A stretch of DNA of 64,000 nucleotides from Spirochaetales bacterium (GTDB lineage: Bacteria; Spirochaetota; Spirochaetia; UBA9216): NCBI GenBank assembly GCA_016839055.1, contig JAEKNX010000013.1, positions 1 to 64,000 of the forward strand, read 5' to 3'. This document shows, piece after piece, positions 1,768 through 27,145 of the stretch; position 1 is the stretch's first letter; each line of letters starts with the position of its first letter. The translations under genes and the position numbers were made by a program. The notes beneath the pieces were generated by a model. The model searched no databases and was not told the DNA's origin. It worked only from the letters and a program-made list of their open reading frames with translations.

Positions 1768-2163
1768 CTATACCGTGTAATCAGTATAATCCTTAAGAGC
1801 CCTATTGTCCGCAAAGCCGTATTTCCTGATAACTTCATCAATATCCTTTCTGCTATCCTCTGGTATATCCGTTATAAGCCCTCCCTGACAGAAGTATTTC
1901 GGGTTTTGGTCAGGTTTGGTCCATAATAATTCAATATGCAGATCGGCGAATTCTCTGTTAAAACTTTCAGATTCAGGCAGCTTCAGTTTTATATGTATTC
2001 CCATGTCCGTTCTAAGCCTGGTCTCGGAGATTATCATTATCCCGTTTTCAGACATGTCTCCGAGCCATCCAATCTCAGTCCCTTTTTCGGCATCGAGGAC
2101 ATTAAGATACATTATTATATGCCTTCTAATTGGAACATCACGCGAATCCGAATGTTTTGACAT
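1768..2163 (-). CDS. PilZ-domain protein, predicted c-di-GMP receptor
   Basis: The start is taken at 2163, where AGGAGG precedes the ATG by four bases; the longer frame to 2196 lacks a site and would run into the upstream gene. The 131-residue product is essentially one PilZ domain. The arginine segment RDVPIRRH near the N-terminus and the strand motif DMSENG (D/NxSxxG) about 30 residues later are the two loops that contact cyclic di-GMP in this family. It is the last gene of the chemosensory run at 1768-15465, 29 bp after the hydrogenase-type receptor. This position suggests that its output is tied to that pathway, possibly in surface motility or exopolysaccharide, but the effector is unknown. 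Confidence 0.8.
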   Translation of the reverse strand: MSKHSDSRDVPIRRHIIMYLNVLDAEKGTEIGWLGDMSENGIMIISETRLRTDMGIHIKLKLPESESFNREFADLHIELLWTKPDQNPKYFCQGGLITDIPEDSRKDIDEVIRKYGFADNRALKDYTDYTV

Positions 2164-2192
2164 GTTTCCTCCTATACTCCCTATACTACTTT

Positions 2193-4184
2193 TCAACTGT
2201 TGAAATGGTCTATATCGGCTGTCAGCTGCTGCAGGTCATGCAGAGTTGATTCAAAATTATTAATCTGACTTCCTATCATGCCGTTTATATGCTCATATGA
2301 TGTTTCAGACTGCAGCAGAAGTTTCTGAAAAACCTCCTGCATGAGTGAGGATAATTCCCATCCTTCTTTTATTTTTTCCGACTCTTCCTGTCCCGCGTAT
2401 ACAAGATTACTTGACGATTGCTGAATTTCCTTAATCCGTTTTCTGATTTCCTGGGTAGAAAGAACTGTATTATCTGCCAGCCGTCTTATTTCGGAGGCTA
2501 CAATCTCAAAATTCTTGCCCTTCTCTCCGGCTGATGAAGCTTCAAGCTCGGCATTGAAGGCGATAATTTTAGTCTGCGCGGCAATACCATTAATAATACC
2601 GACAATCTCCCAGATTCCCTCTATCTGATCTCCAAGATTCTGGATACCCCCGATAGTGTCGTTGCTGGTTTCCTGTATTTCCGTCATCTTAAGTATCGTG
2701 TCCTCTATATATGAGACGCCGTTATTGACAATATCCTTATTCTCCTTCGACAGATCGAATATTTTCGCTATTCCGCTTTTGCTCTCTTCCCCGTTTTTTT
2801 CATCTCCCGATAAGACCATAACGAAATTCATTATATTAGTAATTGATTCTTTGAGTCGCCTTGTAAGCAGAGACGACATCTCTTTTCTGTTCAGACGCTC
2901 ATAATGAAAACAATTTTCAACCTTATTAAGATTATTAAAGATTGCAATTGCCATGCCTCTACAGCTGCCGTATCCGCAGGCTCCGCAGTTGAGGTGATCC
3001 TTTTCGATATATTTATGAAGCTCTTTATAGACAACCGTTAGTTCCGCGTCATCCGGATAGATGATATTATTCTGGCTGCTGCGGTCGATATATGATCTGT
3101 CGTATAAATTCTTTTTCCAGTATTTATTAACTGTCCGTCTGACCCTCGCCGCAGCCCCGGCTTTGGTTCGAATGCCTTTATAACGTGCCTGCATCTGAAG
3201 ATTTCTCTGTTCAACAGCATATTCAATATCATCCGGCGATTTTCCGATATTCATTGTGCCAGGTCCGCCGTTGCATCCTAGCTCACAATTAAGGCAGTCA
3301 ATTACGGCCGGCACCTTTCCGCCTTCTATCGAATCCGTCAGATGATCCAGATAATTATAGATTATATCCGGTCCTTCGATTTTCCTAGTTCCTCTGCTCA
3401 CCTTCGGAGCTTCCCGCTCAAGTGTCCTCATAAGCCCTCCGGGAGTGGAGAAAAGAACGGCGCGTTCTGCTGCTGAATTCATGAAATCTACGTCGTTATA
3501 GATTGAGAGGTCCAGATTATTATCGGTTAAATATGAAGAAATAGACTTGTATGTGATATTAAAATCACCAAATCCTGTTTCATCAAATTCTCGTTTTTTG
3601 GCATAGCATGGAGAAATCACCGCGACCTTGTATGAAGAATATTTTTTATAATATTCCTTAATCATTTTTATTGTATGAAGCATAGGGCTGTCAGCCGGAG
3701 CAAGAAAAGGAAGCAGTTCCGGTTTATAGGTTTCTATATATGTCACAATAGCCGGGCAGGGCTGGGATATCACTGTTTTAGGTTTGTTTTTCTTTACATG
3801 CTCAAGATAGCTTTTGATGGTAAGTTCCGCTCCGAAACTTACATCGAAAAAGGCGGAGACTCCGAGGGTTTTCAGCCATCCATTGAGCTTCAGGTATTCA
3901 CCCGGGAAATTCGAGGCTGCAGCCGGCGCTGTTATTGCTATTATCCTGTCGCCGTTATTGCAGGCATCCAGGAATATGGAAAAATCATCCAGACCATATC
4001 TCGCTTCATGTGTGCAGGCTGTAATACAGCTTCCACAGCCGATGCAGAGCTGTTCATTTATAGTAACATGGTCACCGCTACCGTCATTACAGAATTTAAC
4101 CGGACAGGCACCTATACAGGCATGGCAGTTTACACATTTATCTTTATCAACCTCTACTATCTTTCGTAAACCTTTATCATTCAT
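2193..4184 (-). CDS. [FeFe]-hydrogenase-like sensor fused to a methyl-accepting chemotaxis signalling domain
   Basis: This 663-residue soluble protein has no membrane segment. Residues 8-60 form a two-cluster ferredoxin domain (CxxCxxCxxxC at 17-27 and 47-57). Residues about 75-330 form a hydrogenase large-subunit domain with the H-cluster cysteines present: C143 (QPCP), C193 (SPCYAKK), C300 and C304 (NCELGCNGG). In catalytic enzymes L1 is TSCCP and L2 starts MPC. Here the proton-transfer Cys is Pro and the Met is Ser, as expected of sensory rather than catalytic forms. A further FeS domain (C400, C403, C408, C425; CGACGYGSC) precedes a coiled-coil MCP signalling region (about 450-663) with the tip QTKIIAFNAELEA. 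The likely role is cytoplasmic H2 or redox sensing that controls the CheA encoded two genes upstream. The hydrogenase fold is certain; the ligand is inferred. Confidence 0.88.
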   Translation of the reverse strand: MNDKGLRKIVEVDKDKCVNCHACIGACPVKFCNDGSGDHVTINEQLCIGCGSCITACTHEARYGLDDFSIFLDACNNGDRIIAITAPAAASNFPGEYLKLNGWLKTLGVSAFFDVSFGAELTIKSYLEHVKKNKPKTVISQPCPAIVTYIETYKPELLPFLAPADSPMLHTIKMIKEYYKKYSSYKVAVISPCYAKKREFDETGFGDFNITYKSISSYLTDNNLDLSIYNDVDFMNSAAERAVLFSTPGGLMRTLEREAPKVSRGTRKIEGPDIIYNYLDHLTDSIEGGKVPAVIDCLNCELGCNGGPGTMNIGKSPDDIEYAVEQRNLQMQARYKGIRTKAGAAARVRRTVNKYWKKNLYDRSYIDRSSQNNIIYPDDAELTVVYKELHKYIEKDHLNCGACGYGSCRGMAIAIFNNLNKVENCFHYERLNRKEMSSLLTRRLKESITNIMNFVMVLSGDEKNGEESKSGIAKIFDLSKENKDIVNNGVSYIEDTILKMTEIQETSNDTIGGIQNLGDQIEGIWEIVGIINGIAAQTKIIAFNAELEASSAGEKGKNFEIVASEIRRLADNTVLSTQEIRKRIKEIQQSSSNLVYAGQEESEKIKEGWELSSLMQEVFQKLLLQSETSYEHINGMIGSQINNFESTLHDLQQLTADIDHFNS

Positions 4185-4195
4185 ATTATCACCTT

Positions 4196-6043
4196 TTATT
4201 TAAAATCAAGCGTCAGCGAACCATCCCAGTTTTCGGGCGGGGTTTTTAAAAACTCTTCACATCTGCCTATAAATGTCTCAACAACAGTATCTTCGGGTAT
4301 GAGTTTGTGCAGCCCGGTAAAGTACTCAAGAGCTGACGTGAAATTGCCAAGACGGTACATCTTATACGCCTTCTTGTACTCTTTTAAATATTCAGGCTCA
4401 ATAAGCCTTGAATCGAATTCAACAGCAAACAGACTCGTCGCGATATCCTTGCCTTTCACTTTTACAAAATCTATCTCCCGGAGCGGGAATCCGTCTTTCA
4501 GCTTATCTTTCATTTCTTCTGAAACAAGAATTTCTCTTTTATAGTGTTTTGTCAGACTCTCGAGCCTGGCCGCTAGATTAACCGTATCACCAATAGCCGT
4601 ATAATCAAATTTTGTCGAGGATCCTATATTTCCGACGATAGCATCCCCTTCGTGAAGACCTATTCCAATCCGGAATCCTGGTTCCGGAATGTTCATTCCA
4701 TCTGTGGTAATAGTCGGCAGAGCCTCTATCATTTCTATCGATGCTTTCGCGGCTCTAACGGCATTGTCTTCATAGCTTATTGGAGCTCCGAAAATTGCAA
4801 AAATGGCATCGCCGATGAATTTATCAATATTGCCGCCGTACTTTTTAATGATTGCTACCTGAGTGTCAAAATAACGGTTAAGAAAACTTACTACCTGTTC
4901 CGGAGTATTGGTCTCAGAAATTGTGGTAAATGCGCGGATATCGGAAAATAGCACAACTATATTGCGTTTTTCGCCGACCATAAGATCCTTATCCGATTCC
5001 TTTTCAACCAGGTCGTTTATAATTTCTTCAGGAACGAATTTCGAAAATACATGCCGAATTTTATCTTTCATCTCCAGAACTTCTTTGTAGAGAAGCGAAT
5101 TCTCTACAACCATTCCGGCCCCGTCGGCGAAGATTCGGATATTACCGGTAATATAATCTGAATAATAATTATTCGAAAAATTACCGAGATGCAGAGTACC
5201 TACAACCTTTCCGCCCTTGCCCATCAGATTAAAACAGGAATAGGAGCTGATTTTTTTATTGTCGATTCTTTCTTTCTCGAAATCATCTCTTGTATCAATA
5301 CTGAAGATTGTCTTTTCTACATCCTCAAGATTAAGCCCCTGAAAGCTTTCATAGAAATCATTGAGGCAAATTTGCTGAAAATCTTCAAGATCTGATCTGA
5401 ATACATTTTCATTAACTCGTGCATATGAATATGGCCTCTTTTTATATTCGAGCATCAATATGCAGATATGGCTTTCACATACTTTATTAAGCAGAAATAT
5501 TATCTCTCTAATCGTGTCCTGTAGCGACCGCATAGATGAATGACTTATTTCTCCGAGAAGGTTATTGATTGTGGAATTAAAAAGCTGAACATCAAGTGTC
5601 AGGCCTATCATCTCGAATATTCTGTCTCTTGTAAGCGTGGAGGCCTCCTCCTTAATCGCATCGACGCTGTATTGTGGGTGGTCTAAAAGCGTCCTGACTT
5701 TTTCAAGCAGCAGATCCAGGTTATCAAAGTCCTTTGTAACAAAATCATCTGCCCCGCAGGATATTGCCCAATACTTATCGCGATCATCTGAAAGACTGGT
5801 ATGCATCAGAATTGGAATATCCTTAACCCATCTTCTTGATTTCAGCAGACGGCTCGCCTGATATCCCTGCATAATGGGCATTTCCACATCCATGATAATC
5901 AAGTCGGGGATCATATTATAAGCCTTCTCGATCCCTTCAACCCCGTTGCAGGCCCTCTCTATCTCATATCCGTTTTCTTCCAGAAACTGCGTTAGTACGC
6001 CCGAGACAAGGTCAGAATCATCAACTATTAATATTCTATTCAT
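4196..6043 (-). CDS. Response regulator fused to class III adenylate cyclase (REC-GAF-like-CYC)
   Basis: The 615-residue protein starts with a receiver domain (residues 1-120; acidic DD at 8-9, phospho-acceptor D52 in IIMDVEMP). A central region of about 160-320 looks GAF-like. A helix with FSKFVPEEII, typical just before cyclase domains, follows. The cyclase domain (about 355-545) keeps both metal aspartates (FSDIRAFT and FIGDAIFAIFG), the purine lysine (NIDKF) and YTAIGDTVN. There Thr stands where mammalian-type enzymes have Asp, the class IIIb pattern linked to bicarbonate-responsive cyclases. A C-terminal tail resembles TPR helices. It lies between cheA and the hydrogenase receptor with gaps near 12 bp. 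It is therefore the obvious output of this Che pathway: phosphoryl transfer to D52 would change cAMP synthesis. That link is inferred. Confidence 0.88.
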   Translation of the reverse strand: MNRILIVDDSDLVSGVLTQFLEENGYEIERACNGVEGIEKAYNMIPDLIIMDVEMPIMQGYQASRLLKSRRWVKDIPILMHTSLSDDRDKYWAISCGADDFVTKDFDNLDLLLEKVRTLLDHPQYSVDAIKEEASTLTRDRIFEMIGLTLDVQLFNSTINNLLGEISHSSMRSLQDTIREIIFLLNKVCESHICILMLEYKKRPYSYARVNENVFRSDLEDFQQICLNDFYESFQGLNLEDVEKTIFSIDTRDDFEKERIDNKKISSYSCFNLMGKGGKVVGTLHLGNFSNNYYSDYITGNIRIFADGAGMVVENSLLYKEVLEMKDKIRHVFSKFVPEEIINDLVEKESDKDLMVGEKRNIVVLFSDIRAFTTISETNTPEQVVSFLNRYFDTQVAIIKKYGGNIDKFIGDAIFAIFGAPISYEDNAVRAAKASIEMIEALPTITTDGMNIPEPGFRIGIGLHEGDAIVGNIGSSTKFDYTAIGDTVNLAARLESLTKHYKREILVSEEMKDKLKDGFPLREIDFVKVKGKDIATSLFAVEFDSRLIEPEYLKEYKKAYKMYRLGNFTSALEYFTGLHKLIPEDTVVETFIGRCEEFLKTPPENWDGSLTLDFK

Positions 6044-6055
6044 TACCAGCCCCGC

Positions 6056-8257
6056 CTAGCCTATCAGCTTCTTAACTTCATCCATAAGATTTCCTCTTTC
6101 AAAATCAGACTTCACGATGAAAGAGCTGGCGCCCAATTTAATAAAACGCTCTTTCACTTCCGCCGTATCAAGCGATGAAACTACGATAATCGGTGTCTGA
6201 CTGTATTTTTCATTTTTACGCAGATTCTCAACAAAGGTATAACCGTCCATTCTGGGCATTTGAATGTCGGTAATAATAAGATGGTAATACTGCGCTTTTG
6301 TCTTTTCGAGTGCTTCAATTCCATCCACAGCGGTGTCCACGCTGTAATTTTCCGCCTGCAGTATCGATTTCTCGATCTCCCTTGTTGAAAGCGAATCATC
6401 AACAACAAGAACTTTTTTATAGTCTCTGTTGCCTGAGGAAAACCTCTTCCTGGAATCAATGCTCCTTATCCGCTTAAACCGCGTGATTACTTCCGGAACA
6501 AATAATATATTTACGATATTAAAGCTCTCATCAAAAACAATGCCCTGGATTATTTTCAGCTTATTCAGGCTTGACGGAAGGGGTTTATAGACAAGAGACG
6601 CATATTGTATGACTGATTCGACTATTATGCCTATCATTTCTCCAAGCGATTCAACCACAATTACAAAGTATTTCTGTAGGCCTTCGGTTTCATCCCTGTC
6701 CAGGATATCCGAAAGATGATAGATGGGTATTATTTTATCCCGGAGCTTGATAGCCTTTTTATTGAGCAAATCAAGCTTGTCTTCCTCTTTAATAATAAGC
6801 AGCTCTTTAACGAAATTAGTCGGAATAAGGAATTTCTCGCCGCCTGCTGTTAAGAAAAATCCTTCAACAGTAGCCAGAGACAGCGGAAGCGCCAGAATAA
6901 ATTCGCTCCCCACTTCGACATCGGAATTGAGGGTAACCTTTCCTTTAATCTGTTCGACATTGTATCTTACAATGTCGAGGCCTACGCCCCTGCCGGAAAG
7001 ATCAGTTATCTTTTCCTTTGTCGAGAAACCGGATTGAAAGAGAAAGGTATTGAGTGATGCCTTCCCCATATTAGTTATCTCATCTTCCTTCTGAGGATTC
7101 ATTTCTATTGCTTTTTCCCTGAGCCGGTTATAATCGATTCCCCGTCCGTCATCCTTGATTGAAATAATTATGTTTCCGCTCTCGGAAGTGCATTTTATTC
7201 TAATACTGCCGGTTCTGGGCTTTCCGGCTTTTTCCCTCGTGTCAGGATCCTCAAGCCCGTGATCAATGGCATTTCTGACAATGTGGATGATGGGATCATT
7301 TAATTTTTCAAGTATCACCTTGTCAATAAGAATATCAGTCCCGACCATACTGAGCTCAATTTCCTTATTGATCTGCAGCGCTGTTTCCTCAATCATTTTG
7401 CCCAGCGATCCGAGAATCAATTCAAGCGGCAGCATCCGGAGGCTCAGGATCTCCTCCTGGACTTCGAAAGTTCCCCGTTCCAGCAAGGGAAGCTCTTCAC
7501 TGAAGTTCTTCCTTATCTGCTGAATCAGTTTAAGACAGTCTGAATATTTCTTGTTGTATTCGGCAGACGCGCTGCCGGATGTGCTCATATTGTATTCGGC
7601 AAGTTCACGGAAGTTCTGTTCAAGCTCACTTAGAACATCATTTTCTTTTTTAAACTGAAACTGCCTTATTATCAGATTATTTAATGATTTTACGATTTTA
7701 TCAACCTGACTGATCTTAACCCGGATACTCTCCTGCTCCGGAAGCTCATTTTTCTCGGCAGCAGCTTTTCCTGCTCCCTCAGCTTTTCCTTCCCCAGGCA
7801 AGGCCGGAGCTTTGGAACCGGGAAGGGCGGCATCCTTCTGAAGCTGTACGGCATCAAGCGAAAAAGGTTCATTGGCATAGGCTTTTTCATAGATATTCAG
7901 CAGTTTTTCTATCTCAAGGGCTTCGTCTGATTTATCGTTTTTTATCATTTTAGCGCCAGCGTCGAGATAATCGGTAGTAGTAAAGACTAGCTGAATAATG
8001 AGTTTTGATATTCCGTACCGTTGCTCCTTAATCCCCTTAAAAACATTCTCAAGTCCATGCGCGATCTTTTCGATTTCTCTGAATTTAAGCATTCGCGAGG
8101 AACCTTTTATTGTATGCAGTGCCCGGAGGACAGAGTTCAGCTCTTCTACATTCTCAGGATCCTTTTTCAGTCTAAGAATTCCAGAATTAATCTTTTCGAT
8201 ATTATCCTTAAATTCCTCAATAAAATTATCAATAAACGCGTTTCTATCTAAAGCCAT
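6056..8257 (-). CDS. cheA: CheA histidine kinase with C-terminal receiver domain
   Basis: This 733-residue hybrid CheA begins with an Hpt domain, with phospho-acceptor H48 in ALHTIKGSSRM. A Pro/Ala/Lys-rich linker near residues 120-175 follows. There is no obvious separate CheY-binding P2 domain. The dimerisation region and HATPase domain contain RNAIDHGLEDP (N box), DDGRGID and GRGVGLDIV (G boxes). A CheW-like P5 domain follows, then a receiver domain with D664 in IITDIQMP. A fused receiver is common in CheAs of alternative-function or twitching pathways, where it can act as a phosphate sink. It sits between cheR and the cyclase response regulator, whose REC domain is the likely main phosphoryl acceptor since no separate CheY gene is present. 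Confidence 0.95.
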   Translation of the reverse strand: MALDRNAFIDNFIEEFKDNIEKINSGILRLKKDPENVEELNSVLRALHTIKGSSRMLKFREIEKIAHGLENVFKGIKEQRYGISKLIIQLVFTTTDYLDAGAKMIKNDKSDEALEIEKLLNIYEKAYANEPFSLDAVQLQKDAALPGSKAPALPGEGKAEGAGKAAAEKNELPEQESIRVKISQVDKIVKSLNNLIIRQFQFKKENDVLSELEQNFRELAEYNMSTSGSASAEYNKKYSDCLKLIQQIRKNFSEELPLLERGTFEVQEEILSLRMLPLELILGSLGKMIEETALQINKEIELSMVGTDILIDKVILEKLNDPIIHIVRNAIDHGLEDPDTREKAGKPRTGSIRIKCTSESGNIIISIKDDGRGIDYNRLREKAIEMNPQKEDEITNMGKASLNTFLFQSGFSTKEKITDLSGRGVGLDIVRYNVEQIKGKVTLNSDVEVGSEFILALPLSLATVEGFFLTAGGEKFLIPTNFVKELLIIKEEDKLDLLNKKAIKLRDKIIPIYHLSDILDRDETEGLQKYFVIVVESLGEMIGIIVESVIQYASLVYKPLPSSLNKLKIIQGIVFDESFNIVNILFVPEVITRFKRIRSIDSRKRFSSGNRDYKKVLVVDDSLSTREIEKSILQAENYSVDTAVDGIEALEKTKAQYYHLIITDIQMPRMDGYTFVENLRKNEKYSQTPIIVVSSLDTAEVKERFIKLGASSFIVKSDFERGNLMDEVKKLIG

Positions 8258-8266
8258 AGATTAACC

Positions 8267-9670
8267 TCATATTTTCTTCAGCCATTGTTCACAAATTCTC
8301 AAAAAATATTTCCCATTAAAACCTTCAAGGAAAATCTGATATTTATAACTGTCTTTCCTGATATATTCCTTAATTGCCGTGATACATTTCTTCAATACTT
8401 CTTTTGCTTCCGCGGACTTTCGTTCCATCAGGATTGAAGAAAGATAAAAACCCGCAGGCCAGAGTGTACTATCCATCATAAGCGATTTATTAAAATACTC
8501 AGAGGCCTGATCCTTTTTATTTTTAATAAAAAAGGTATATCCCTTCAGAAATAAAGTCAGAGCGTTCAAGCCCGTCATCATTTCAAATTCATCAATTTCA
8601 AGGACAGCCCGATCTATCTCATTATTATTAATCATGTAGATTATCCTGATAAGCTTTACCGCCGAGTCATAATTAGGATTCCGGACAAGGTTGAATATAC
8701 GGTTATTTAGTTTGGCTGCCGCGTATTCCAGGATCAGATCCAAATCTATTTCCTCAGTGATGGTTTCTAAATTATTACAGGCTTCCGTAACACCCTCTTC
8801 CTGGAGTTTTAGAAGAATTGATGGTATTATTTTATTCTGTTCCAATTTTTCGGCAATACTTTTTTTCTGAAAATAGAAGGAGCCATTTGTTTCAATAAGG
8901 TTCAGATCCATATGAGAAATTAGCGGCATTTCAGTAGCCGAAAGAAACAGGAATCCGCCTGGTTTTAGTTTCTCTACTACTGAATCAATTATTATTTTAC
9001 GTTTTTCCAGGGCGAAATATATTATTGTATTTCTAAGAAAAATTACATCAAAGAGTTCACCGAAAACGCCCCCGTTAAAATCAGAAAGGTTCAGGTTTAG
9101 TTTATTTATTTCTTTAATTAATTCCGGCTTTATCCTGAATGATTTATCTTTGACAACCGAGTTTTTCTTAACAAGAGCATGGTATTTCAATCCATCTTCT
9201 CTGAAGGAATTGCTCCGGTAGACACCGCGTTCAAAATGCGCGAGGACTTCCACGTTAACATCGGAACCGGAAACCTTAAAACTGCAGTTGTCCCCGAAAA
9301 AATTTTCCGCGGTTAAATACAGTGATATTGCCTCTTCTCCGGTCGAACAAGCGGCACTCCAGATATTTACAGACTTCTGCTTGTCTGCTAAGGCCGGAAA
9401 AACAATATCATTAAGAAGCGTAAAATGTTTCTCTTCCCTGAAAAAATAGGTTTCATTGATCGTCACTGTATCAACAAATTTGTTATATTCAGATTTATCA
9501 GAATCAATCATTTTAAGATAGCCGCTGAAGTCAAGAGATTTTTCGTTCAATTTCGCTGACAGATAATTCCGGACAATATTGTAATTTGTTAAAGGCAGTT
9601 CCATTCCAATTCTTGATGATATATAATCAAGAGAAAGTTTAAAATCCAGGTCGTTCAGGTTACTGTTCAT
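8267..9670 (-). CDS. cheR: CheR chemoreceptor methyltransferase with C-terminal TPR-like extension
   Basis: The 467-residue protein has an N-terminal CheR helical domain (residues 10-75) followed by a SAM-dependent methyltransferase domain. Marks of CheR are TVTINETYFFREE, the SAM loop WSAACSTGEEAIS and IFLRNTIIYF. After about residue 280 comes a 190-residue helical region with TPR-like pairs (KGYTFFIKNKKDQASEYF in part), as in CheR fusions of non-flagellar chemosensory systems. It should methylate glutamates on the three receptors encoded in the same cluster, using S-adenosylmethionine. It overlaps cheB by 4 bp and precedes cheA by 9 bp, which indicates one transcript and translational coupling. 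Confidence 0.93.
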   Translation of the reverse strand: MNSNLNDLDFKLSLDYISSRIGMELPLTNYNIVRNYLSAKLNEKSLDFSGYLKMIDSDKSEYNKFVDTVTINETYFFREEKHFTLLNDIVFPALADKQKSVNIWSAACSTGEEAISLYLTAENFFGDNCSFKVSGSDVNVEVLAHFERGVYRSNSFREDGLKYHALVKKNSVVKDKSFRIKPELIKEINKLNLNLSDFNGGVFGELFDVIFLRNTIIYFALEKRKIIIDSVVEKLKPGGFLFLSATEMPLISHMDLNLIETNGSFYFQKKSIAEKLEQNKIIPSILLKLQEEGVTEACNNLETITEEIDLDLILEYAAAKLNNRIFNLVRNPNYDSAVKLIRIIYMINNNEIDRAVLEIDEFEMMTGLNALTLFLKGYTFFIKNKKDQASEYFNKSLMMDSTLWPAGFYLSSILMERKSAEAKEVLKKCITAIKEYIRKDSYKYQIFLEGFNGKYFLRICEQWLKKI

Positions 9671-10686
9671 CTGTTCTTAAGAATCCTTAAAATAGATCCG
9701 GCCATTTCATCAAGCGGAACGACAAAGGATGCAGCCCCCATCATGGCAGCCTCTTTCGGCATACCGTAGATTACCGAAGAAGCCTCATCCTGCACCAGAG
9801 TTGTTCCGCCTGCCTTCACTATGCTCAGACAGCCCATCGCGCCGTCGCTTCCCATACCGGTAAGCAGAACCCCAAGCAGTTTCGAACCGAATACTGAGGA
9901 GGCTGAATTAAAAAGAACATCGACAGCCGGTTTCTGATTCAGAACCTTAGCCCCGTCATCAGGGTAGACTCCCGATCTGTCTACAACTATGTGCCGGTCG
10001 GTAGGAGCCAGAAATACTTTCCCGCCTGTGCATTTCATTCTGGCATTTACAAGAACTACATCAAGATCGGTTGCACCATTTAGCCAGTCGCGGTAACCTT
10101 CCGCGAATCCTGATTCAAGATGCTGAACAAGCGCAATTGGAATTGGAAGATCCCCCGGCAGACCTGACAGGATTGTCCGAACGGCCTTCGGGCCGCCCGT
10201 AGAGGCCCCGATTACTATCATTTCAGGGATATTTGTCTTCTCTATTTCTTCCGGACGCAAAACATCAGTCCTAAGACGGCTGCTTTTTTCCTTTAAAGCG
10301 GATTTGCTTCCAAGCAGACGGATTTTAGTGAAAAAGTTTTTTAAAAAAACTGGATCATTATACTGGCTGATATCTGGTTTAGCCATGACATCCATAGCTC
10401 CTGCCTGACAGGCCCTGAAGCTGGTATCAGCATCTATCATCGAAGAAAGAATGAGAATCGGGCAGGGATTTTCAGCCATTATTATTCTTGTTGATTCAAT
10501 ACCGTCCATTACAGGCATGTTTATATCCAGAATAACCAAGTCCGGTTTTAAAGCCCTGACGGCCTCTACCCCTGATTTACCGTTTGAAGCCTCGCCGGCT
10601 ATTACAATATCGTCTGTATCAGAAAATACCTGCTTGAGAATGCTTCGTATCAATGCTGAGTCGTCAACAATCAGTATTTTTATCAT
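9667..10686 (-). CDS. cheB: CheB receptor methylesterase/deamidase
   Basis: The protein has standard length (339 residues) and layout: a receiver domain (residues 1-120, D54 in VILDINMP), a linker, and a methylesterase domain. The catalytic residues align as S162 (GASTGGPK), H189 (VQHLESGF) and D281 (TGMGSDGA), as in enterobacterial CheB. It removes methyl groups added by CheR and is activated by CheA-dependent phosphorylation of the receiver, giving adaptation. It overlaps its neighbours on both sides by 4 bp (cheR downstream, the CheW-like gene upstream). Confidence 0.95.
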   Translation of the reverse strand: MIKILIVDDSALIRSILKQVFSDTDDIVIAGEASNGKSGVEAVRALKPDLVILDINMPVMDGIESTRIIMAENPCPILILSSMIDADTSFRACQAGAMDVMAKPDISQYNDPVFLKNFFTKIRLLGSKSALKEKSSRLRTDVLRPEEIEKTNIPEMIVIGASTGGPKAVRTILSGLPGDLPIPIALVQHLESGFAEGYRDWLNGATDLDVVLVNARMKCTGGKVFLAPTDRHIVVDRSGVYPDDGAKVLNQKPAVDVLFNSASSVFGSKLLGVLLTGMGSDGAMGCLSIVKAGGTTLVQDEASSVIYGMPKEAAMMGAASFVVPLDEMAGSILRILKNR

Positions 10687-11189
10687 TCTATAATCCTGTC
10701 CTTAAAAAGCGAATTAAACATAAACTGCTCAATATCTATAAGAAACTGAGGGTATCCGTTCTCTTTGAACCTCATTCCGAGTATGCCTCTTCGGAGCTGA
10801 AACTCCTGCATTGCCCCGGGAAGCATCTTTATCTCGGAAAGCGGTATGGAATTTATTTCTGCCTGGCTTCCTATTTTAAGAGAAAGATATTTAGCAGAGA
10901 CATCTGAGTCTTCCGGGAAATCATCTAAAATGACTTCGAATCTTTTCTTGTTCATTTTCGTATAGACGGTAATGTCGCAAATAAGAGCGAGCCTTAAATC
11001 GTCCGTACTTTCAAAGCTGAATTGCTCGTTAAGGCATTCATCCATATTAAAAGTAAAAAGTTTTTCACCGTTATATTCAGTAAATTCAGTATTCTCTTCA
11101 AGATAAATACTGGAAAAAAACTGATCCCGGTTTACAAGAAATCCGATTTTCTCATAAGAGAGCTCGAGAAAATCATGTTCAATCGGCAT
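10683..11189 (-). CDS. Divergent CheW-like coupling protein
   Basis: The start is set at the ATG at 11189 (MPIEHD), preceded by GAGAGG at normal distance; a TTG 15 bases earlier would also be in frame. The 168-residue product resembles a CheW fold in strand order and in the C-terminal stretch RRGILGMRF...FLIDIEQFMF, but it lacks the clear VRG-type motifs of true CheW. It lies between cheW and cheB and overlaps both. It may be a second adaptor that links particular receptors to CheA. The family assignment rests on context and weak pattern similarity. Confidence 0.6.
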   Translation of the reverse strand: MPIEHDFLELSYEKIGFLVNRDQFFSSIYLEENTEFTEYNGEKLFTFNMDECLNEQFSFESTDDLRLALICDITVYTKMNKKRFEVILDDFPEDSDVSAKYLSLKIGSQAEINSIPLSEIKMLPGAMQEFQLRRGILGMRFKENGYPQFLIDIEQFMFNSLFKDRIIE

Positions 11190-11688
11190 TAAGATCCCTC
11201 TCAAGCCTTTTAAGGATTGCTTCTGTGTTCAGAATAAAGATCTCTTCACCCTCTTCAGAGGTAATCGAACTTACAAAAAAGTCTTCGTTCTCATCCCTTA
11301 GTGTAACCTTATGAATATGTGATTCAGGGGTCTTCTGAATTTCCAGAACGTCATTGATCATAAACGCAACCTGATCGTCCTCAATATTCATTATGAAGAA
11401 AGTTGAAGATTCGAGTTTCTTCTGTTCAAACAGCATGTTAAGATCAAAAACTGTATACGGCTCTCCATGACGGTTGATAAAACCTCTTATATACGACGGA
11501 ACAAAGGGAACGTAAAAAAGCGGTACATCAAGAACTATTTCTCTGATCTTATCGGCATACAGCGCATAAACCTTCTTGTTGATTCGAAAGACAATAAGCT
11601 TTCTTATTGTTTCATTTACATCGGTTTTATTTAGTTTTTCACTTTTTCCTGCTTCGGAAATCCCTTTCAGAAGTTCATTTGTATCCAT
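11179..11688 (-). CDS. cheW: CheW coupling protein
   Basis: This 169-residue protein has the expected CheW core after a 30-residue N-terminal extension. KLIVFRINKKVYALYADKIREIV is the opening strand pair (quoted in part: LIVFRI, YALYA). Then come the FYVPFVPSYIRGFINRHG segment (VPxYIRGxxNxRG type) and DLNMLF. CheW links receptors to the CheA P5 domain at the membrane array. Its stop overlaps the start of the next gene, and its start codon shares one base with the stop of the upstream receptor. Confidence 0.92.
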   Translation of the reverse strand: MDTNELLKGISEAGKSEKLNKTDVNETIRKLIVFRINKKVYALYADKIREIVLDVPLFYVPFVPSYIRGFINRHGEPYTVFDLNMLFEQKKLESSTFFIMNIEDDQVAFMINDVLEIQKTPESHIHKVTLRDENEDFFVSSITSEEGEEIFILNTEAILKRLERDLNAD

Positions 11689-13712
11689 TAGCGATTACCC
11701 TTTACTTTATATTCAATTACAGTCTCGTTAAGAGCATCTGCCTGTGATTTAAGATTATGAGACGCGGTTGTAGTTGCTTTTGTAGATATAACGAAATTAT
11801 CTATGCCCTCGGAAATCTGTTTCAAGGTTAGAAGAATTTGCTCAAATGCAGAGACCTGCTGCTTTATTGATATTGAAATATGTTCGGCCGATGTGGCTGA
11901 TATTTCTGATGAACTGAGGACATCCTCAAATAGTTTTTTCAGGGCATTAGAAAGTTCCCAGCCCTTGCTGATCTTGGTTGTCCCCTCCTCGCTGGAGATT
12001 ATAAGCCTGTCGGACGAATGCTGAATTTCATTTATCTTTGTTTTTATCTCATTAGTAGACGATACGGTACTGTCCGCGAGCCGCCTGATTTCTGTTGCTA
12101 CTATCTGAAAGTTCTTCCCTGCATCACCCGCGGCTGAAGCTTCAAGCTCCGCGTTAAAGGCGATTATTTTTGTTTGATCGGCAATTCCATTAATAATATT
12201 GACGATTTCCCAGATACTTTCTATCTTTTCTCCAAGCATTTTGATTCCGGAAATTGTACCTGTATTCGCCTGACGTATCTCATCCATCTTCGACAGGGTT
12301 TCCTTAATGATAGTAAATCCGTCGTTGACTACCTTTTTCGTATTATTCGAGACTGCCGTAACCTCTTCAATCTTGACCGCTATACTCTTTGAGAGGTTGT
12401 CGGAATCTTCCATTGTGCTGACAATTTCCTTAACAGCGGCAGCCTGTTCATTGGAGGTGCTGGAGATCTCCTGACTAGAAACAGACAGCTCCTGAACTGA
12501 ATCAAGCAGAACATGGGTTGTATTTCTCACCGTTATCAGCATATTGGAAAACTTCTCAATAACCGTGTTGAACTGATCGGCCATCTGTCCTATTTCATCT
12601 TCACTCTCAACCTCCAGTCGGAGCGAGAGATCTCCCTCCGAGACGAGTCCGCTTATTTCCTTAGCTCTGGAAACCGGCGCGAGAATTCTGGAGAAAATCA
12701 GATTCACTATTATATTTATTATTATGATACTTCCCGCGGCAAGAATTATCATCATCAGGAATATCTTCCTCAGAAATACAGTTGTTTCATCAAGCGGAAT
12801 CTGTGAAATTACAATCCAGTTCAGATCGGCAATGTTTTTATAAACGGCGAGTTCCTGAACCCCGTCTCCAGTTTCAGCAAGGGTTAAATCTGCAAATACT
12901 TTTGTATGATATGTATCGGGATTGTTGACTGCCTCTGTAATTATCTCGTCAACTGTTTTCCCTCCCGCCTCATCGATTTGTTCATAGATGTTTTTTCCCG
13001 TCATTCCGGGATGGAAAATCAAATTGCCTTCCGTGTCTATAACCCAGGTGTATCCATTCTTTCCTATATTAATACCCGAAAGGCTTGAGCCTATTTTCTC
13101 GACATTAATCAATGAAGTAAATTCGTTTTTATATGATGAAGCCCATATTATCAGATCCCATGGTTCAAAATACGCCATACCGCCTGCCTTTATCCTGGGA
13201 ACTTCCTCTCCGACATTCGCCCATTCATATTCAATAAATCCGTTTTTAAGGGCGGTTGCCTTCTTCATGAAGTCATACTTGCTTGCGTCAACACCCTGAG
13301 ATTTTGGATGTATTGCCAGAATACCGTTTGAATCTACCCCGGCAAGATATCCTGTCTCGCCAACCCTTCCAAAAACCGGATCAAGAATGAATCTGCTGAA
13401 GGTATTGTAAGCTTCTTCTTCTGAAATTCTGCCGGACTTGAACTGCTGGTATTCATATTCAGCAACCTTTTTTACGTCTTCGGCGAGTAAAACAAGATGA
13501 TTCTCCACCGACATATCGGTATAATCAGCTACTAATGAAGATGCGACACTTGTTATAGAACTTAGCTCGCGGACAGCTTTCTGCATGAGATCCGGCTTGA
13601 TAGTAAGATACATTACCGCCGCGAAAAGACATAATGCAATAATAAAAAATACTGCAAATACAAGCTGTATTTTACCTTTTAGTCCTTTAAAAAAATTGAA
13701 AACCCTCTTCAT
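11688..13712 (-). CDS. Methyl-accepting chemotaxis protein with periplasmic double Cache domain
   Basis: The 674-residue receptor has membrane segments at about 15-37 and 317-340. Between them lies a periplasmic sensor with two Cache-type repeats, recognisable by GYLAGVDSNGILAIHP and GYTWVIDTEGNLIFHP. A HAMP domain follows at 341-394 (ILAPVSRAKEIS...). The signalling coiled coil carries the tip QTKIIAFNAELEASAAGD. This tip is close to that of the hydrogenase receptor and the multi-pass receptor, and differs from the canonical QTNLLALNAAIEAARAGE. Cache receptors bind small organic molecules such as carboxylates and amino acids; the ligand here is unknown. No C-terminal CheR-docking pentapeptide is visible. 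Confidence 0.92.
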   Translation of the reverse strand: MKRVFNFFKGLKGKIQLVFAVFFIIALCLFAAVMYLTIKPDLMQKAVRELSSITSVASSLVADYTDMSVENHLVLLAEDVKKVAEYEYQQFKSGRISEEEAYNTFSRFILDPVFGRVGETGYLAGVDSNGILAIHPKSQGVDASKYDFMKKATALKNGFIEYEWANVGEEVPRIKAGGMAYFEPWDLIIWASSYKNEFTSLINVEKIGSSLSGINIGKNGYTWVIDTEGNLIFHPGMTGKNIYEQIDEAGGKTVDEIITEAVNNPDTYHTKVFADLTLAETGDGVQELAVYKNIADLNWIVISQIPLDETTVFLRKIFLMMIILAAGSIIIINIIVNLIFSRILAPVSRAKEISGLVSEGDLSLRLEVESEDEIGQMADQFNTVIEKFSNMLITVRNTTHVLLDSVQELSVSSQEISSTSNEQAAAVKEIVSTMEDSDNLSKSIAVKIEEVTAVSNNTKKVVNDGFTIIKETLSKMDEIRQANTGTISGIKMLGEKIESIWEIVNIINGIADQTKIIAFNAELEASAAGDAGKNFQIVATEIRRLADSTVSSTNEIKTKINEIQHSSDRLIISSEEGTTKISKGWELSNALKKLFEDVLSSSEISATSAEHISISIKQQVSAFEQILLTLKQISEGIDNFVISTKATTTASHNLKSQADALNETVIEYKVKGNR

Positions 13713-13740: not shown

Positions 13741-15465
13741 TCATTTTATTGAAAATGTATTAATTAATTGTTCAAGCTCCGAAATAAGTTTCATCATATC
13801 GTGCGTATTTTCCGCAATATGGTTTGTTGAAGCGGCAAATTGCCCGATTCCTGAGGATATCTGCTTTAGTGTCAACAATATCTGCTGAAAAGCGGAAACC
13901 TGCTGTTCGGTTTTTAAAGAAATACTGCCTGAAAAATCATTTGTTGAACTCGCCATCTCGCGCAGTCGTTCCATAAGCTGTCTTAACTTTTCAGTGGTCT
14001 CAATGCCTTCGGTTATCCTGGCGGTTCCTGTCCTTGATGTTCTGCTGAGTGATTCAGAATAAGACTGGATATCGGAGATGGAATCTTTTATTCTGGCAGT
14101 CGATGCTACGGTATTATCGGCAAGACGCCTTATTTCAGTAGCAACTATCTGAAAATTGCGGCCGGCGTCGCCTGCCGCCGTGGCTTCCAGCTCTGCATTG
14201 AAGGCTATTATTTTAGTCTGATTTGCAATATTGTTAATGATATTCACGATTTCCCATATGCTTGCTATACTGTCGTTCAGCGTTTCAATGACCACCACCG
14301 TTTCCTTGTCGGCATTCGTAATCATCTCCATCTGTTGTCTGTTCTCCTCGATCAGTTTTACTCCCTGGTCCACGCTCGTTTCTATCTCGCTGGAACGTTC
14401 GTCAATTTCTCTGACATTGGATGCAACCTCTTTTGAAAGCCTGGAGGATTCTTCCATTGTCGTAACAATTTCATTAACGGCTGCAGCCTGTTCATTTGAG
14501 GTAGTCGAAAATTCCTCAGACATGGAAGAAAGGTTCAGTGATGCGGTGGAAATAGTAGAATTGTTTTTCTGAACCTTCTCTATCATTATTCCGAGATTTT
14601 TAAAGGATACATTAAGCAAATAAATAATATACTCCATTTCATCTTTAATCGTCGTCTTGGTCTGCACTTTCAAATTACCTGAATTACTTGCAATAACATT
14701 GAGGTTTAGTGAAATTCTAAAAAGTATGTTTTTATATGATCTTATTACAAGGAGACCAAGACTAATATTGGTTGATAGATTTATTAGAATTACAATAATT
14801 ATCTTAAGACGTAAGATGAAAATGGAAATTCCCGAATGAAAAGATGATTCAATAGCCAGATATACAGTGAGTGTAGTAAAAATGACAGGAATAATGATGA
14901 AGTATAAGTTATTACGGAAGAAACTGATTCCGAAATGTTTTCTGCCGGATAAATCTTCAACAGTAAAGCTTATTTCAGAAGATAGATTTTCCAGCATAGG
15001 CCTGACAAGTCTGAAAGCAATGGTATATGCAAGAAGCCCGGCTATATAACTGCCGTACATTGCCAGGATCACGGCCAACACGGCCTGAAATGTATCAATT
15101 CCAATTACAAACACCATATAAAACCCTGCCGCCACGGAACCGGCGGCCACCCTGGCAAAAATAGCCACGGCGTGTACAATCGGCAATTTGTGCAGGGCGG
15201 TGAACAGTTGTATCTTCTCTTCCCTTCCCGGATTCTCTTTTCTAAGAAGTCTCATGACCCTTCGGCTGATTATAAAATTTATCGGCATTCCAACAAACAT
15301 GACAACCATAATGCCTAATACGGCTAACATTATTAGGACTGAAGTGATTTTATCGGACGGAATATCCGTTAATATTATCGCATAGGCCGCGGCTATAGGA
15401 AGCCCTACTCCAATACCTGCAATTTCGGTACCTAAGAATTTTTTAAAGAAGTTACTCGGTTTCAT
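13741..15465 (-). CDS. Methyl-accepting chemotaxis protein with multi-pass membrane sensor
   Basis: The 574-residue receptor begins with about 255 residues holding six predicted membrane segments, for example IAGIGVGLPIAAAYAIIL and LFIIIPVIFTTLTVYLAI-like stretches, with almost no periplasmic domain. A HAMP-like or linker section follows, then a signalling coiled coil with EIVTTMEESS and the tip QTKIIAFNAELEATAAGD. Such membrane-embedded inputs suggest sensing of a membrane-soluble signal or of membrane state. It is the first gene of the chemosensory run: AGGAG stands five bases before the ATG and a 320-bp intergenic region lies upstream. Confidence 0.88.
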   Translation of the reverse strand: MKPSNFFKKFLGTEIAGIGVGLPIAAAYAIILTDIPSDKITSVLIMLAVLGIMVVMFVGMPINFIISRRVMRLLRKENPGREEKIQLFTALHKLPIVHAVAIFARVAAGSVAAGFYMVFVIGIDTFQAVLAVILAMYGSYIAGLLAYTIAFRLVRPMLENLSSEISFTVEDLSGRKHFGISFFRNNLYFIIIPVIFTTLTVYLAIESSFHSGISIFILRLKIIIVILINLSTNISLGLLVIRSYKNILFRISLNLNVIASNSGNLKVQTKTTIKDEMEYIIYLLNVSFKNLGIMIEKVQKNNSTISTASLNLSSMSEEFSTTSNEQAAAVNEIVTTMEESSRLSKEVASNVREIDERSSEIETSVDQGVKLIEENRQQMEMITNADKETVVVIETLNDSIASIWEIVNIINNIANQTKIIAFNAELEATAAGDAGRNFQIVATEIRRLADNTVASTARIKDSISDIQSYSESLSRTSRTGTARITEGIETTEKLRQLMERLREMASSTNDFSGSISLKTEQQVSAFQQILLTLKQISSGIGQFAASTNHIAENTHDMMKLISELEQLINTFSIK

Positions 15466-24319: not shown

Positions 24320-27145
24320 ATGAAATTATTACCCTCGGTTCTACTCGTAACAATTATTACGAGTATGCTGTTTTTCACCTCTTGTGATCCCAATGCACTT
24401 TCTGAGGCAGAATCAATTGCCATTGATAAAGCGCTTCTTGAAATAGTTTACTCTGGCAGTGATACAGCTACTAGTGTTAATGCAAATGTTACCCTAGCCT
24501 CAACCGGAAGTTCTGGTACAGTTATTACCTGGGAAAGTAATTGTGTCAATGTAATAACTGCTGCAGGTGTCGTTACAAGACCAGCTTTTGCTGATGGGAA
24601 CTGTCCGGTTGTTTTGACGGCAACACTTACTAAGGATGATGCCACCGATACAAAAACATTTAATCTTATAGTTATCTGTTTGGCTGCAACAGATGCTGAA
24701 GCTGTTTCGGCAGACAAAGCAGCCCTCAATACAAATAATATAATATTTGCCGCAGGAGACACCGCTACATCAATTACCGGCGATTTTACTCTACCCTCAA
24801 TTGGTTCTAACGGAACCACAATTACCTGGGAAAGTAATCTTGTAAATGTGATAACTGCTGCAGGTGTCGTTACAAGACCAGCTTTTGCTGATGGGAACTG
24901 TCCGGTTGTTTTGACGGCAACACTTACTAAGGATGATGCCACCGATACAAAAACATTTAATCTTATAGTTATCTGTTTGGCTGCAACAGATGCTGAAGCT
25001 GTTTCGGCAGACAAAGCAGCCCTCAATACAAATAATATAATATTTGCCGCAGGAGACACCGCTACATCAATTACCGGCGATTTTACTCTACCCTCAATTG
25101 GTTCTAACGGAACCACAATTACCTGGGAAAGTAATCTTGTAAATGTGATAACTGCTGCAGGTGTCGTTACAAGACCAGCTTTTGCTGATGGGAACTGTCC
25201 GGTTGTTTTGACGGCAACACTTACTAAGGATGATGCCACCGATACAAAAACATTTAATCTTATAGTTATCTGTTTGGCTGCAACAGATGCTGAAGCTGTT
25301 TCGGCAGACAAAGCAGCCCTCAATACAAATAATATAATATTTGCCGCAGGAGACACCGCTACATCAATTACCGGCGATTTTACTCTACCCTCAATTGGTT
25401 CTAACGGAACCACAATTACCTGGGAAAGTAATCTTGTAAATGTGATAACTGCTGCAGGTGTCGTTACAAGACCAGCTTTTGCTGATGGGAACTGTCCGGT
25501 TGTTTTGACGGCAACACTTACTAAGGATGATGCCACCGATACAAAAACATTTAATCTTATAGTTATCTGTTTGGCTGCAACAGATGCTGAAGCTGTTTCG
25601 GCAGACAAAGCAGCCCTCAATACAAATAATATAATATTTGCCGCAGGAGACACCGCTACATCAATTACCGGCGATTTTACTCTACCCTCAATTGGTTCTA
25701 ACGGAACCACAATTACCTGGGAAAGTAATCTTGTAAATGTGATAACTGCTGCAGGTGTCGTTACAAGACCGTCATTCAGTGACGGTGACTGTCCGGTTGT
25801 TTTAACGGCAACACTAACCAAAGAAGAAGCCACCGATACAAAAACATTTGCTCTTACGGTTATCTGTTTGGATGCAACAGATACTGATTTAGCTTCGGCA
25901 AATCTTGATACAAATGATATAATATTTACCACAGGTGATACGGCGACCTCAGTTACAGCTGATTTCACTCTACCCTTAACTGGTACTAACGAAACCACAA
26001 TTTCCTGGGCTGAAGGAACTGATACCGCTAATGCTGTCAGCATTTCAGGAAACGATGTAACCGTATCACGTCCTAGAGGTAATGGCAGCAATGACGCATC
26101 AGTGACCATAAGAGCTACTATTTCAAAGAGTGGTATTACAGATACAACAAAAGATTTAACAATTATTATTTCGGACATAATTTCAATAGCGAATTCTCCA
26201 AATGGGAACAGGCTTGCTGTAGCCTCCGATGGTACCCGCTACTATCTTGAAGGCAAATCTCTTGAGATAACTGCTGTTCACAAAAGTTCAGACGGACGCG
26301 AATGGACAACGCTTTCGTCAACAGGTTTACCCACAGGCCCCGAGACTGCCTACTATGGTTCATCAATAGCCGTTGATTCTAAGAAAACCGTTTATGTCCT
26401 TTCTAATATAGGTAACCCCTGCCGAACAAATGTCTATAAGCTGTCAGATGGAGGTACTTCATGGTCTCTTGTAGGTAATGAAGATTTTGCAACTGAATCA
26501 AACGAGAGTACAGGCAGGATCGTAATTGATTCTAATGACAAGCCGATTGCAATGGCTAATGTCTCCAGTGCCCTGCACGTTTTTGAACTTGTAGAGAATG
26601 TATGGACTGATATTTCTCCAGAGACTACATCGTATAAAGCTGATATCTATACCGATGGCAGTGATATCTATTATGTACATGGTGCAGGGAGTAGTTATTA
26701 TAGCGTGTATAAACGAAACTCCGAGAGCTGGTCTAAAATTACAGATACATCAAATATAACAGGCGAGTATAATTTTAAGTATCCCTCAATATCTGTAGAT
26801 AGCGGTATTGTAACTGTAGCAGTAGTTGAAAGCGGAAGTGTAAAAGTTGTTAGATGGGAATTGGGTTCGTGGACAGTGCTTTCATCAGGAATGCCTAAGA
26901 TAGATGTTTCTCAGAATACCTGTGGATATATTCAAGCCTTAACTATAGCTTCGGTATCATATCTTGCAGCTCATGATGGGACTCTTATTAAATACAGCTC
27001 CGGTTCATGGTCTAAATTGAGTGATTTCACAAGTTGCAGTAGTGCTGGAATAAACACTGATTACGATCCGACTACCGGGAAGATAGTTGTTCTAAACGGC
27101 TATCCGTCAAGCGGCAGCTGGTTTATGCTTGATGTAACTCCATAA
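24320..27145 (+). CDS. Lipoprotein with six Ig-like (aBig-type) domains and a propeller-like C-terminus
   Basis: This 941-residue protein has a lipobox (FFTSC) after a hydrophobic N-terminus. Residues about 33-630 hold six tandem domains of about 99 residues with the atypical bacterial Ig-like pattern ITWES...VITAAGVVTRP...CPVVLTATLTK...TKTFNL. Domains 2-4 are identical in protein and the second to fifth are nearly so in DNA. The sixth is divergent (ISWAEGTD). The last 300 residues contain repeated SSDGREW, YKLSDGGTSW and SGSWSKL strands that suggest a beta-propeller. It is probably surface-exposed and extended, with a role in adhesion or polymer binding. GGAG five bases before the ATG and a terminator at 27174 bound it as one gene. 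Confidence 0.85.
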   Translation: MKLLPSVLLVTIITSMLFFTSCDPNALSEAESIAIDKALLEIVYSGSDTATSVNANVTLASTGSSGTVITWESNCVNVITAAGVVTRPAFADGNCPVVLTATLTKDDATDTKTFNLIVICLAATDAEAVSADKAALNTNNIIFAAGDTATSITGDFTLPSIGSNGTTITWESNLVNVITAAGVVTRPAFADGNCPVVLTATLTKDDATDTKTFNLIVICLAATDAEAVSADKAALNTNNIIFAAGDTATSITGDFTLPSIGSNGTTITWESNLVNVITAAGVVTRPAFADGNCPVVLTATLTKDDATDTKTFNLIVICLAATDAEAVSADKAALNTNNIIFAAGDTATSITGDFTLPSIGSNGTTITWESNLVNVITAAGVVTRPAFADGNCPVVLTATLTKDDATDTKTFNLIVICLAATDAEAVSADKAALNTNNIIFAAGDTATSITGDFTLPSIGSNGTTITWESNLVNVITAAGVVTRPSFSDGDCPVVLTATLTKEEATDTKTFALTVICLDATDTDLASANLDTNDIIFTTGDTATSVTADFTLPLTGTNETTISWAEGTDTANAVSISGNDVTVSRPRGNGSNDASVTIRATISKSGITDTTKDLTIIISDIISIANSPNGNRLAVASDGTRYYLEGKSLEITAVHKSSDGREWTTLSSTGLPTGPETAYYGSSIAVDSKKTVYVLSNIGNPCRTNVYKLSDGGTSWSLVGNEDFATESNESTGRIVIDSNDKPIAMANVSSALHVFELVENVWTDISPETTSYKADIYTDGSDIYYVHGAGSSYYSVYKRNSESWSKITDTSNITGEYNFKYPSISVDSGIVTVAVVESGSVKVVRWELGSWTVLSSGMPKIDVSQNTCGYIQALTIASVSYLAAHDGTLIKYSSGSWSKLSDFTSCSSAGINTDYDPTTGKIVVLNGYPSSGSWFMLDVTP
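24554..25770 (+). repeat. 297-bp tandem repeat inside the lipoprotein gene
   Basis: The same sequence recurs at an exact 297-bp period (for example GGCTGCAACAGATGC at about 24682, 24979, 25276 and 25573). No differences are visible by eye over about 1.2 kb, whereas the flanking units diverge. This points to recent copy-number change by recombination. It also produces a long spurious open frame on the opposite strand. Confidence 0.9.

Follow-up and report, generated by a model that had tools for sequence, protein, structure and literature searches.

A hydrogenase-type cytoplasmic chemoreceptor in a che operon with a nucleotide cyclase as its probable output, from a Spirochaetales bacterium

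The window analyzed in this study was a stretch of 64,000 nucleotides from a Spirochaetales bacterium (contig JAEKNX010000013.1, positions 1 to 64,000). A same-strand run of ten genes with gaps of no more than 28 bp was found on its minus strand, from 15465 to 1768. The first gene (13741..15465) encoded a membrane methyl-accepting chemotaxis protein (MCP) identified by MCPsignal with no recognized ligand domain, and the second (11688..13712) encoded a membrane MCP with a Cache input according to Pfam. They were followed by the genes for CheW (11179..11688), a 173-aa protein with no match in the Pfam search (10683..11204), CheB (9667..10686), CheR with a C-terminal TPR-like region (8267..9670; CheR above and TPR_8 below the cut-off), and CheA with a C-terminal receiver (6056..8257; Hpt, HATPase_c, CheW, and Response_reg). 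CheW and CheB were assigned by Pfam. Furthermore, a response regulator with a class III nucleotide cyclase, which is the likely output, was encoded at 4196..6043, with Response_reg and Guanylate_cyc above the cut-off. The next to last gene (2193..4184) encoded a soluble chemoreceptor of 663 aa with an [FeFe]-hydrogenase-like input, here named Hyd-MCP, which was characterized by its ORF, Pfam, an AlphaFold2 model, and structural alignment. The last gene (1768..2196) overlapped that of Hyd-MCP by 4 bp and was tentatively assigned as PilZ-like (PilZ 19.3 bits, below the cut-off of 22.5). No separate CheY was found among the ten genes. Elsewhere in the window, a 941-aa ORF (24320-27145) contained several tandem repeats, each about 90 aa long and nearly identical to the others, of the Ig-like surface-protein type.

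From its N-terminus, Hyd-MCP possessed two ferredoxin-type [4Fe-4S] motifs, C17/C20/C23/C27 and C47/C50/C53/C57 (Fer4 in two stretches, 4014..4136), an H-domain at residues 81-308 (3261..3944), a C-terminal FeS domain of the form Cx2Cx4Cx16C with C400/C403/C408/C425 (2910..2987), and an MCP signalling hairpin at residues 479-634 with the unusual tip NAELEASSAGEKGKNFEIVASEIRRLA (2283..2750), all on the minus strand. The Fe_hyd_lg_C match (PF02906) to the H-domain had a score of 111.1 bits and an E-value of 9e-32, and covered profile positions 3-245 of 245. The MCPsignal match (PF00015) scored 81.7 bits against a cut-off of 34.6, and the PF04060 match scored 31.3 bits over residues 398-425. Fe_hyd_lg_C, MCPsignal, Fer4, and PF04060 were all above the curated Pfam cut-offs, and the group A and group B hydrogenase models of NCBIfam gave sub-threshold matches only, as expected for a distant subgroup. 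In addition, the maximum 19-residue hydropathy was 1.33, whereas the two membrane MCPs encoded nearby reached about 2.9, and no transmembrane span is therefore expected. The domain matches, residue positions, and hydropathy were in agreement with the preliminary description, in which ferredoxin clusters, C143, C193, C300, and C304, a further four-cysteine FeS domain, and an MCP domain had been placed in one soluble protein.

Within the H-domain, the L1 motif was SQPCP with C143 (3756-3758), the L2 motif was SPCYAKK with C193 (3606-3608) and K196 (3597-3599), and the L3 motif was DCLNCELGC with C300 (3285-3287) and C304 (3273-3275), on the minus strand. In the alignment to CpI, P142 occupied the position of the L1 Cys C299, S191 that of the L2 Met M353, and L298 that of M497, while K196 corresponded to CpI K358 and was kept. 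Accordingly, the trio of catalytic group A hydrogenases (the L1 proton-relay C299, M353, and M497) was replaced, and the four cubane-ligand cysteines (C143, C193, C300, and C304) were present together with the conserved lysine near the distal Fe. The alignment confirmed the exchange of the L1 Cys for Pro and of the L2 Met for Ser, which had been read from the letters at first, and the view that an H-domain/MCP fusion carries sensory-type L1/L2 loops was supported. Moreover, Hyd-MCP had an extra L3 cysteine (D-C297-L-N-C300), which was conserved in most relatives. The AlphaFold2 model had a mean pLDDT of 83 and aligned with CbA5H over 346 residues (Z 35.1, rmsd 2.7 A) and with CpI at a Z of about 31-32. 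The alignments to solved [FeFe]-hydrogenases spanned residues 4-370, and the identity was only about 22-24%.

The loss of the L1 Cys relay and the exchange of the methionines are known from group C and D enzymes, and TamHydS of group D (M2e), like Hyd-MCP, has no L1 Cys and has Ser in place of M353 and Leu in place of M497 (PMC8163306). TamHydS also resembles Hyd-MCP in its two N-terminal clusters, its C-terminal Cx2Cx4Cx16C cluster, and the absence of a PAS domain, but it has no fused output domain. The C-terminal motif and the loop residues of TamHydS-like group D proteins were found in Hyd-MCP (C400/403/408/425, S191, and L298). TmHydS of group C (M2f) shares with Hyd-MCP the sensory-type fusion, the C-terminal FeS domain, and the lack of the L1 Cys; however, it continues into a PAS domain where Hyd-MCP continues into an MCP rod, and its loop residues are Ser/Gly compared with Leu/Ser in Hyd-MCP. 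In the tree of 75 rows, the 40 rows of the Hyd-MCP family formed one clade (support 100/100), which was sister to the group C-type rows (L006 and L057-L063; 98/85), while the rows of the A, B, and D types were placed elsewhere; the group C rows were assigned by domain content and not by HydDB. Hyd-MCP did not branch with group D, which was represented by L007 and its family homologues as a separate clade on the A/B side, TamHydS itself not being in the tree. L007 is a group D-like H-domain protein of the window's genome (1096-3292 of its locus); a GHKL-type ATPase is encoded next to it together with a response regulator that stands alone, and this neighbourhood resembles that described for TamHydS.

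Group C2 of the [FeFe]-hydrogenases was named "chemotactic (putative)" in HydDB in 2016 and was described there as sensing H2 through methyl-accepting chemotaxis proteins (PMC5037454). Like that group, Hyd-MCP has an H-domain linked to an MCP (PF02906 and PF00015 on one polypeptide) and groups with group C in the tree, and H2 sensing has been proposed for both; the filing as C2 was made by domain content and tree and not by the HydDB classifier. The dedicated che-cyclase operon of Hyd-MCP is absent from the HydDB entry. In addition, a 2012 paper of Ballor, Paulsen and Leadbetter refers in its title to hydrogen sensors in termite treponemes (cited in PMC4070709). Group C2 calls made with HydDB in acetogens were discarded by the authors on validation (PMC9431212). 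No experimental paper on an H-domain/MCP fusion was found in full-text literature searches. The abstract of the 2012 paper reportedly mentions possible chemotaxis. Hyd-MCP is thus real and well conserved, and its H-domain/MCP kind is already known as a proposal; the idea that it is a new kind of input has to be given up because of the HydDB entry and the termite treponeme proposal.

The genome scan detected relatives of Hyd-MCP in Spirochaetota, Fibrobacterota, Bacteroidota, Goldiibacteriota, and Planctomycetota. Among the sampled Spirochaetota, the input module was present in 93 of 392 genomes and 47 of 163 genera, and it is therefore common in this phylum. C143, C193, C300, C304, C400, C403, C408, C425, C47, C50, C53, C57, and L298 were invariant in 32 aligned receptors, and P142, S191, K196, and the first ferredoxin set (C17/C20/C23/C27) were nearly invariant. 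Throughout the clade, nearly every row retained the ligand cysteines and the [2Fe]-pocket lysine. In two receptors (L050 and L051), the four cysteines were kept, the equivalent of K196 (CpI K358) was Asn, and the L2 proline was lost (GACIGN and GSCIGN); judging by these residues, they possibly no longer hold a [2Fe] subcluster. The Planctomycetota members carried the same input on PAS-GAF-histidine kinase-REC chains, and its occurrence with a different output is as expected of a sensor module. Three planctomycete hybrid kinases with this input (L042, L043, and L053) are candidate H2 or redox sensor kinases.

Most relatives were encoded by stand-alone genes and had the standard MCP tip. A second protein of this type in the genome of the window, L009 (719 aa), also had the usual tip NAAIEAA.AGE.GKGFAVVA, as did most relatives, and L009 more likely feeds the general chemotaxis array. 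The tip of Hyd-MCP was different from it, and the form NAELEA[ST]...A..IRRLA was common to Hyd-MCP and the two membrane MCPs of the operon, which belong to the same signalling class. When the Hyd-MCP signalling domain was compared with the rest of the genome, it was 55% identical to that of the Cache MCP and 46% identical to that of the first-gene MCP over nearly the full length, whereas 30 other MCP places in the genome gave weaker, mostly shorter matches of 27-42%. Given the shared tip class and the operon's own CheA, CheW, CheB, CheR, and cyclase, the simplest inference is that Hyd-MCP serves the CheA of its operon, and its place in the operon and the signalling domain it shares suggest that it couples to CheA and CheW. 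The possibility that relatives share this context was considered and rejected, as none of the loci examined showed the complete operon in synteny; at the L055 locus, a related MCP and CheW were present and the rest of the che-cyclase operon was not there.

The maturases HydE, HydF, and HydG were searched for in the genome of the window by family searches of an assembly that is 97% complete, so that a gap is possible. The best HydG score was 37 bits against a cut-off of 312, HydF reached at most 83 bits against 326, a score that ordinary GTPases also reach, and HydE reached at most 165 bits against 254.6. Two proteins (L010 and L076) were considered as the missing HydE and rejected, since their 165 bits were far below the cut-off and the true HydE of a genome of the same genus (G002) scored 525. 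The preliminary description had named the lack of hydEFG in the genome as a point against its reading, and none was found within the limits of this 97%-complete assembly. An assembly accident in a single metagenome-assembled genome is by itself an unlikely cause, because the six other genomes of the family had no HydG and five of them had no HydF. In total, HydG was found in none of the seven family genomes, including G003, which is 100% complete, and HydF was missing in six of the seven; each of these genomes encoded 3-9 H-domain proteins.

The exception was G002, which had a clear hydF-aspA-hydE cluster. In the locus concerned (L117, 1233-11630), a TM1266-like gene, identified by eye only, hydF, aspA, and hydE were followed by two co-oriented NifH/NifD/NifK-like sets, and hydG was absent from the vicinity. 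These genes may form a maturation operon that lacks HydG, or they may be neighbours by chance. The nitrogenase-like genes of this locus were considered as a genus-wide replacement of HydG and set aside, since the nearest homologue in the genome of the window (28% identity) lay beside ABC-transporter genes and not hydrogenase genes. A NifH/NifD/NifK-like set of this genome (L124, G000:C37, 7485-10725) was located beside genes for a substrate-binding protein and an ABC transporter.

In the HydG-less family of the host, the window's genome included, group A hydrogenases with intact active-site motifs were kept. These enzymes need the same maturases, and the absence of HydEFG is therefore not peculiar to the receptor; it is a puzzle of the lineage as a whole and is insufficient in itself to exclude an H-cluster on Hyd-MCP. 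Several group A hydrogenases (L001, L003, and L004 of the window's genome, and L090-L092, L099, L100, and L102) had an L1 motif of TSCSPGW or SSCSPGW, with Ser where the cubane-ligand Cys normally aligns, and the solved HydA1 7q4v_A also has TSCSPGW. Furthermore, the window's genome encoded a group B-like hydrogenase close to a group C-like H-domain protein (L005 and L006; G000:C43, about 46.5-51 kb). The group C-like partner had FeS and apparently PAS-like regions, and pairs of this type recurred in G001, G003, and G006.

HydG was found in 55 of 93 host genomes of Hyd-MCP-type proteins compared with 75 of the 299 other genomes (Fisher p = 3e-9, with no correction for kinship). It was missing in the remaining 38 hosts, including G215 and G272, which are two-contig assemblies of 99% completeness. 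The P/S/L loops were considered as a mark of HydG-less hosts and this was rejected, since neither the loop set nor K196 differed between HydG-containing and HydG-less hosts. In two Treponema loci (L041 and L045), the Hyd-MCP gene was directly followed, at a distance of about 20 bp or less, by co-oriented hydG, hydF, and hydE; in L039 and L040, hydE lay on one side of it and hydG-hydF on the other, and L037 had both hydG and hydE within 4 kb. L039 and L040 were near-identical and L041 and L045 were close relatives, so that there are perhaps three independent cases of this linkage. The adjacency to hydGFE in several Treponema supports a real H-cluster on such receptors. The earlier claim that the protein reports H2 or electron pressure is thus partly upheld: the conserved pocket ligands and an operon with hydGFE support an H-cluster and hence such a signal, and the lack of detected HydEFG in the host genome stands against it.

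Taking these results together, we give a probability of about 0.62 to the explanation that a hydrogenase-type cytoplasmic receptor acts through the operon CheA on the cyclase. Hyd-MCP would be a cytoplasmic chemoreceptor with a slow, sensory-type [FeFe]-hydrogenase module as its input. Through its H-cluster site and its pair of N-terminal clusters, the module would read H2, the redox state of the ferredoxin pool, or both, and a structural change would pass via the C-terminal FeS domain to the MCP rod. Aer and other cytoplasmic MCP redox chemoreceptors also use an internal redox-active cofactor to drive the MCP signalling domain, but these receptors use flavin or haem, whereas Hyd-MCP has an H-cluster-type site. 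The secondary structure of TamHydS changes on H2 or photoreduction, but 1 atm H2 does not reduce the C-terminal cluster of this protein (PMC13104023), which makes an electron relay through that cluster doubtful. By analogy with TamHydS, the signal would cross the FeS domain to the MCP rod by a conformational rather than an electronic route.

The window copy would signal, together with the two membrane MCPs, to the CheA of its own operon, which would phosphorylate the REC-cyclase and its own REC domain. The flagellar motor would not be controlled directly; the output would instead be a cyclic nucleotide, by analogy probably cAMP. Che systems that act on targets other than the motor are known as chemosensory systems of alternative cellular function. 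Like them, the operon has a complete CheA/W/B/R set and a dedicated response regulator other than CheY; it differs in having a REC-nucleotide cyclase as this regulator and a hydrogenase-based protein among its receptors. A sensor of redox state or H2 that feeds the operon's CheA is well favoured as the role of Hyd-MCP. A redox-sensing role is likely and H2 sensing by this protein is plausible; H2 itself as the signal in this organism has slightly less than an even chance.

The strongest competitor is a redox sensor in which the cubane is present without the [2Fe] subcluster because HydEFG is absent, and which responds to electron pressure or oxidants (O2, NO) and not to H2. The failure to find the maturases in the window's genome and HydG in 38 of 93 hosts is consistent with it, as are the invariance of the four cubane ligands and the two receptors that lost the K358 lysine and the L2 proline with these cysteines kept. 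However, drift of the pocket would be expected, whereas K196 and the L1/L2/L3 pocket were conserved in the HydG-less members (L019, L020, L024, L028, L044, L046, and L054); the retention of group A hydrogenases with intact pockets in the HydG-less family and the hydGFE genes that abut the receptor gene in some Treponema also argue against it, and this sensor is considered rather improbable. A wider version, in which many spirochaetes, the window's organism among them, keep the receptor without HydG and canonical maturation, either as a [4Fe-4S]-only redox sensor of hydrogenase fold or with an H-cluster made by a non-canonical route, and in which the window copy drives a CheA-to-cyclase cascade and not swimming, is doubtful to a similar degree.

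In a reading along the lines of the preliminary description, the protein would be an H2 chemotaxis receptor that joins the general array and steers swimming to or from H2 through the flagellar motor. The many stand-alone relatives with the standard MCP tip, the paralogue L009 of that kind, and the term "chemotactic" used by HydDB for group C2 agree with this. The window copy, however, shares its tip class only with the two MCPs of its own che-cyclase operon, which has no CheY, and a flagellar role is accordingly unlikely for it; the cyclase, not the flagellum, is its probable output. The low identity to solved hydrogenases might also indicate a degenerate H-domain without metal-based function that serves as a scaffold only. 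This is very improbable, as the 12 cysteines of the second ferredoxin site, the H-site, and the FeS site were invariant in 32 sequences from several phyla, and a vestigial H-domain was rejected in view of this invariance of the ligands. Hyd-MCP as a hydrogenase-type receptor of the operon CheA thus remains the preferred reading.

As far as can be told, the P/S/L loop signature of the clade, the hydGFE operon link of the Hyd-MCP gene, the kinase-linked planctomycete members, the cyclase-linked che operon with Hyd-MCP, and the many HydG-less Hyd-MCP hosts are new. An H2-sensing chemoreceptor class has been in the databases since 2016, apparently without experiment. The HydG-less hosts pose the question of whether a sensory H-domain needs the [2Fe] subcluster, and a yes or a no would both be instructive for sensory [FeFe]-hydrogenases in general. 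In gut and sediment habitats, which are home to many of these spirochaetes, H2 is a central intermediate. The conserved pocket, the hydGFE operons of Treponema, and the che-cyclase operon lead to testable predictions on the ligand and the signal target of these receptors.
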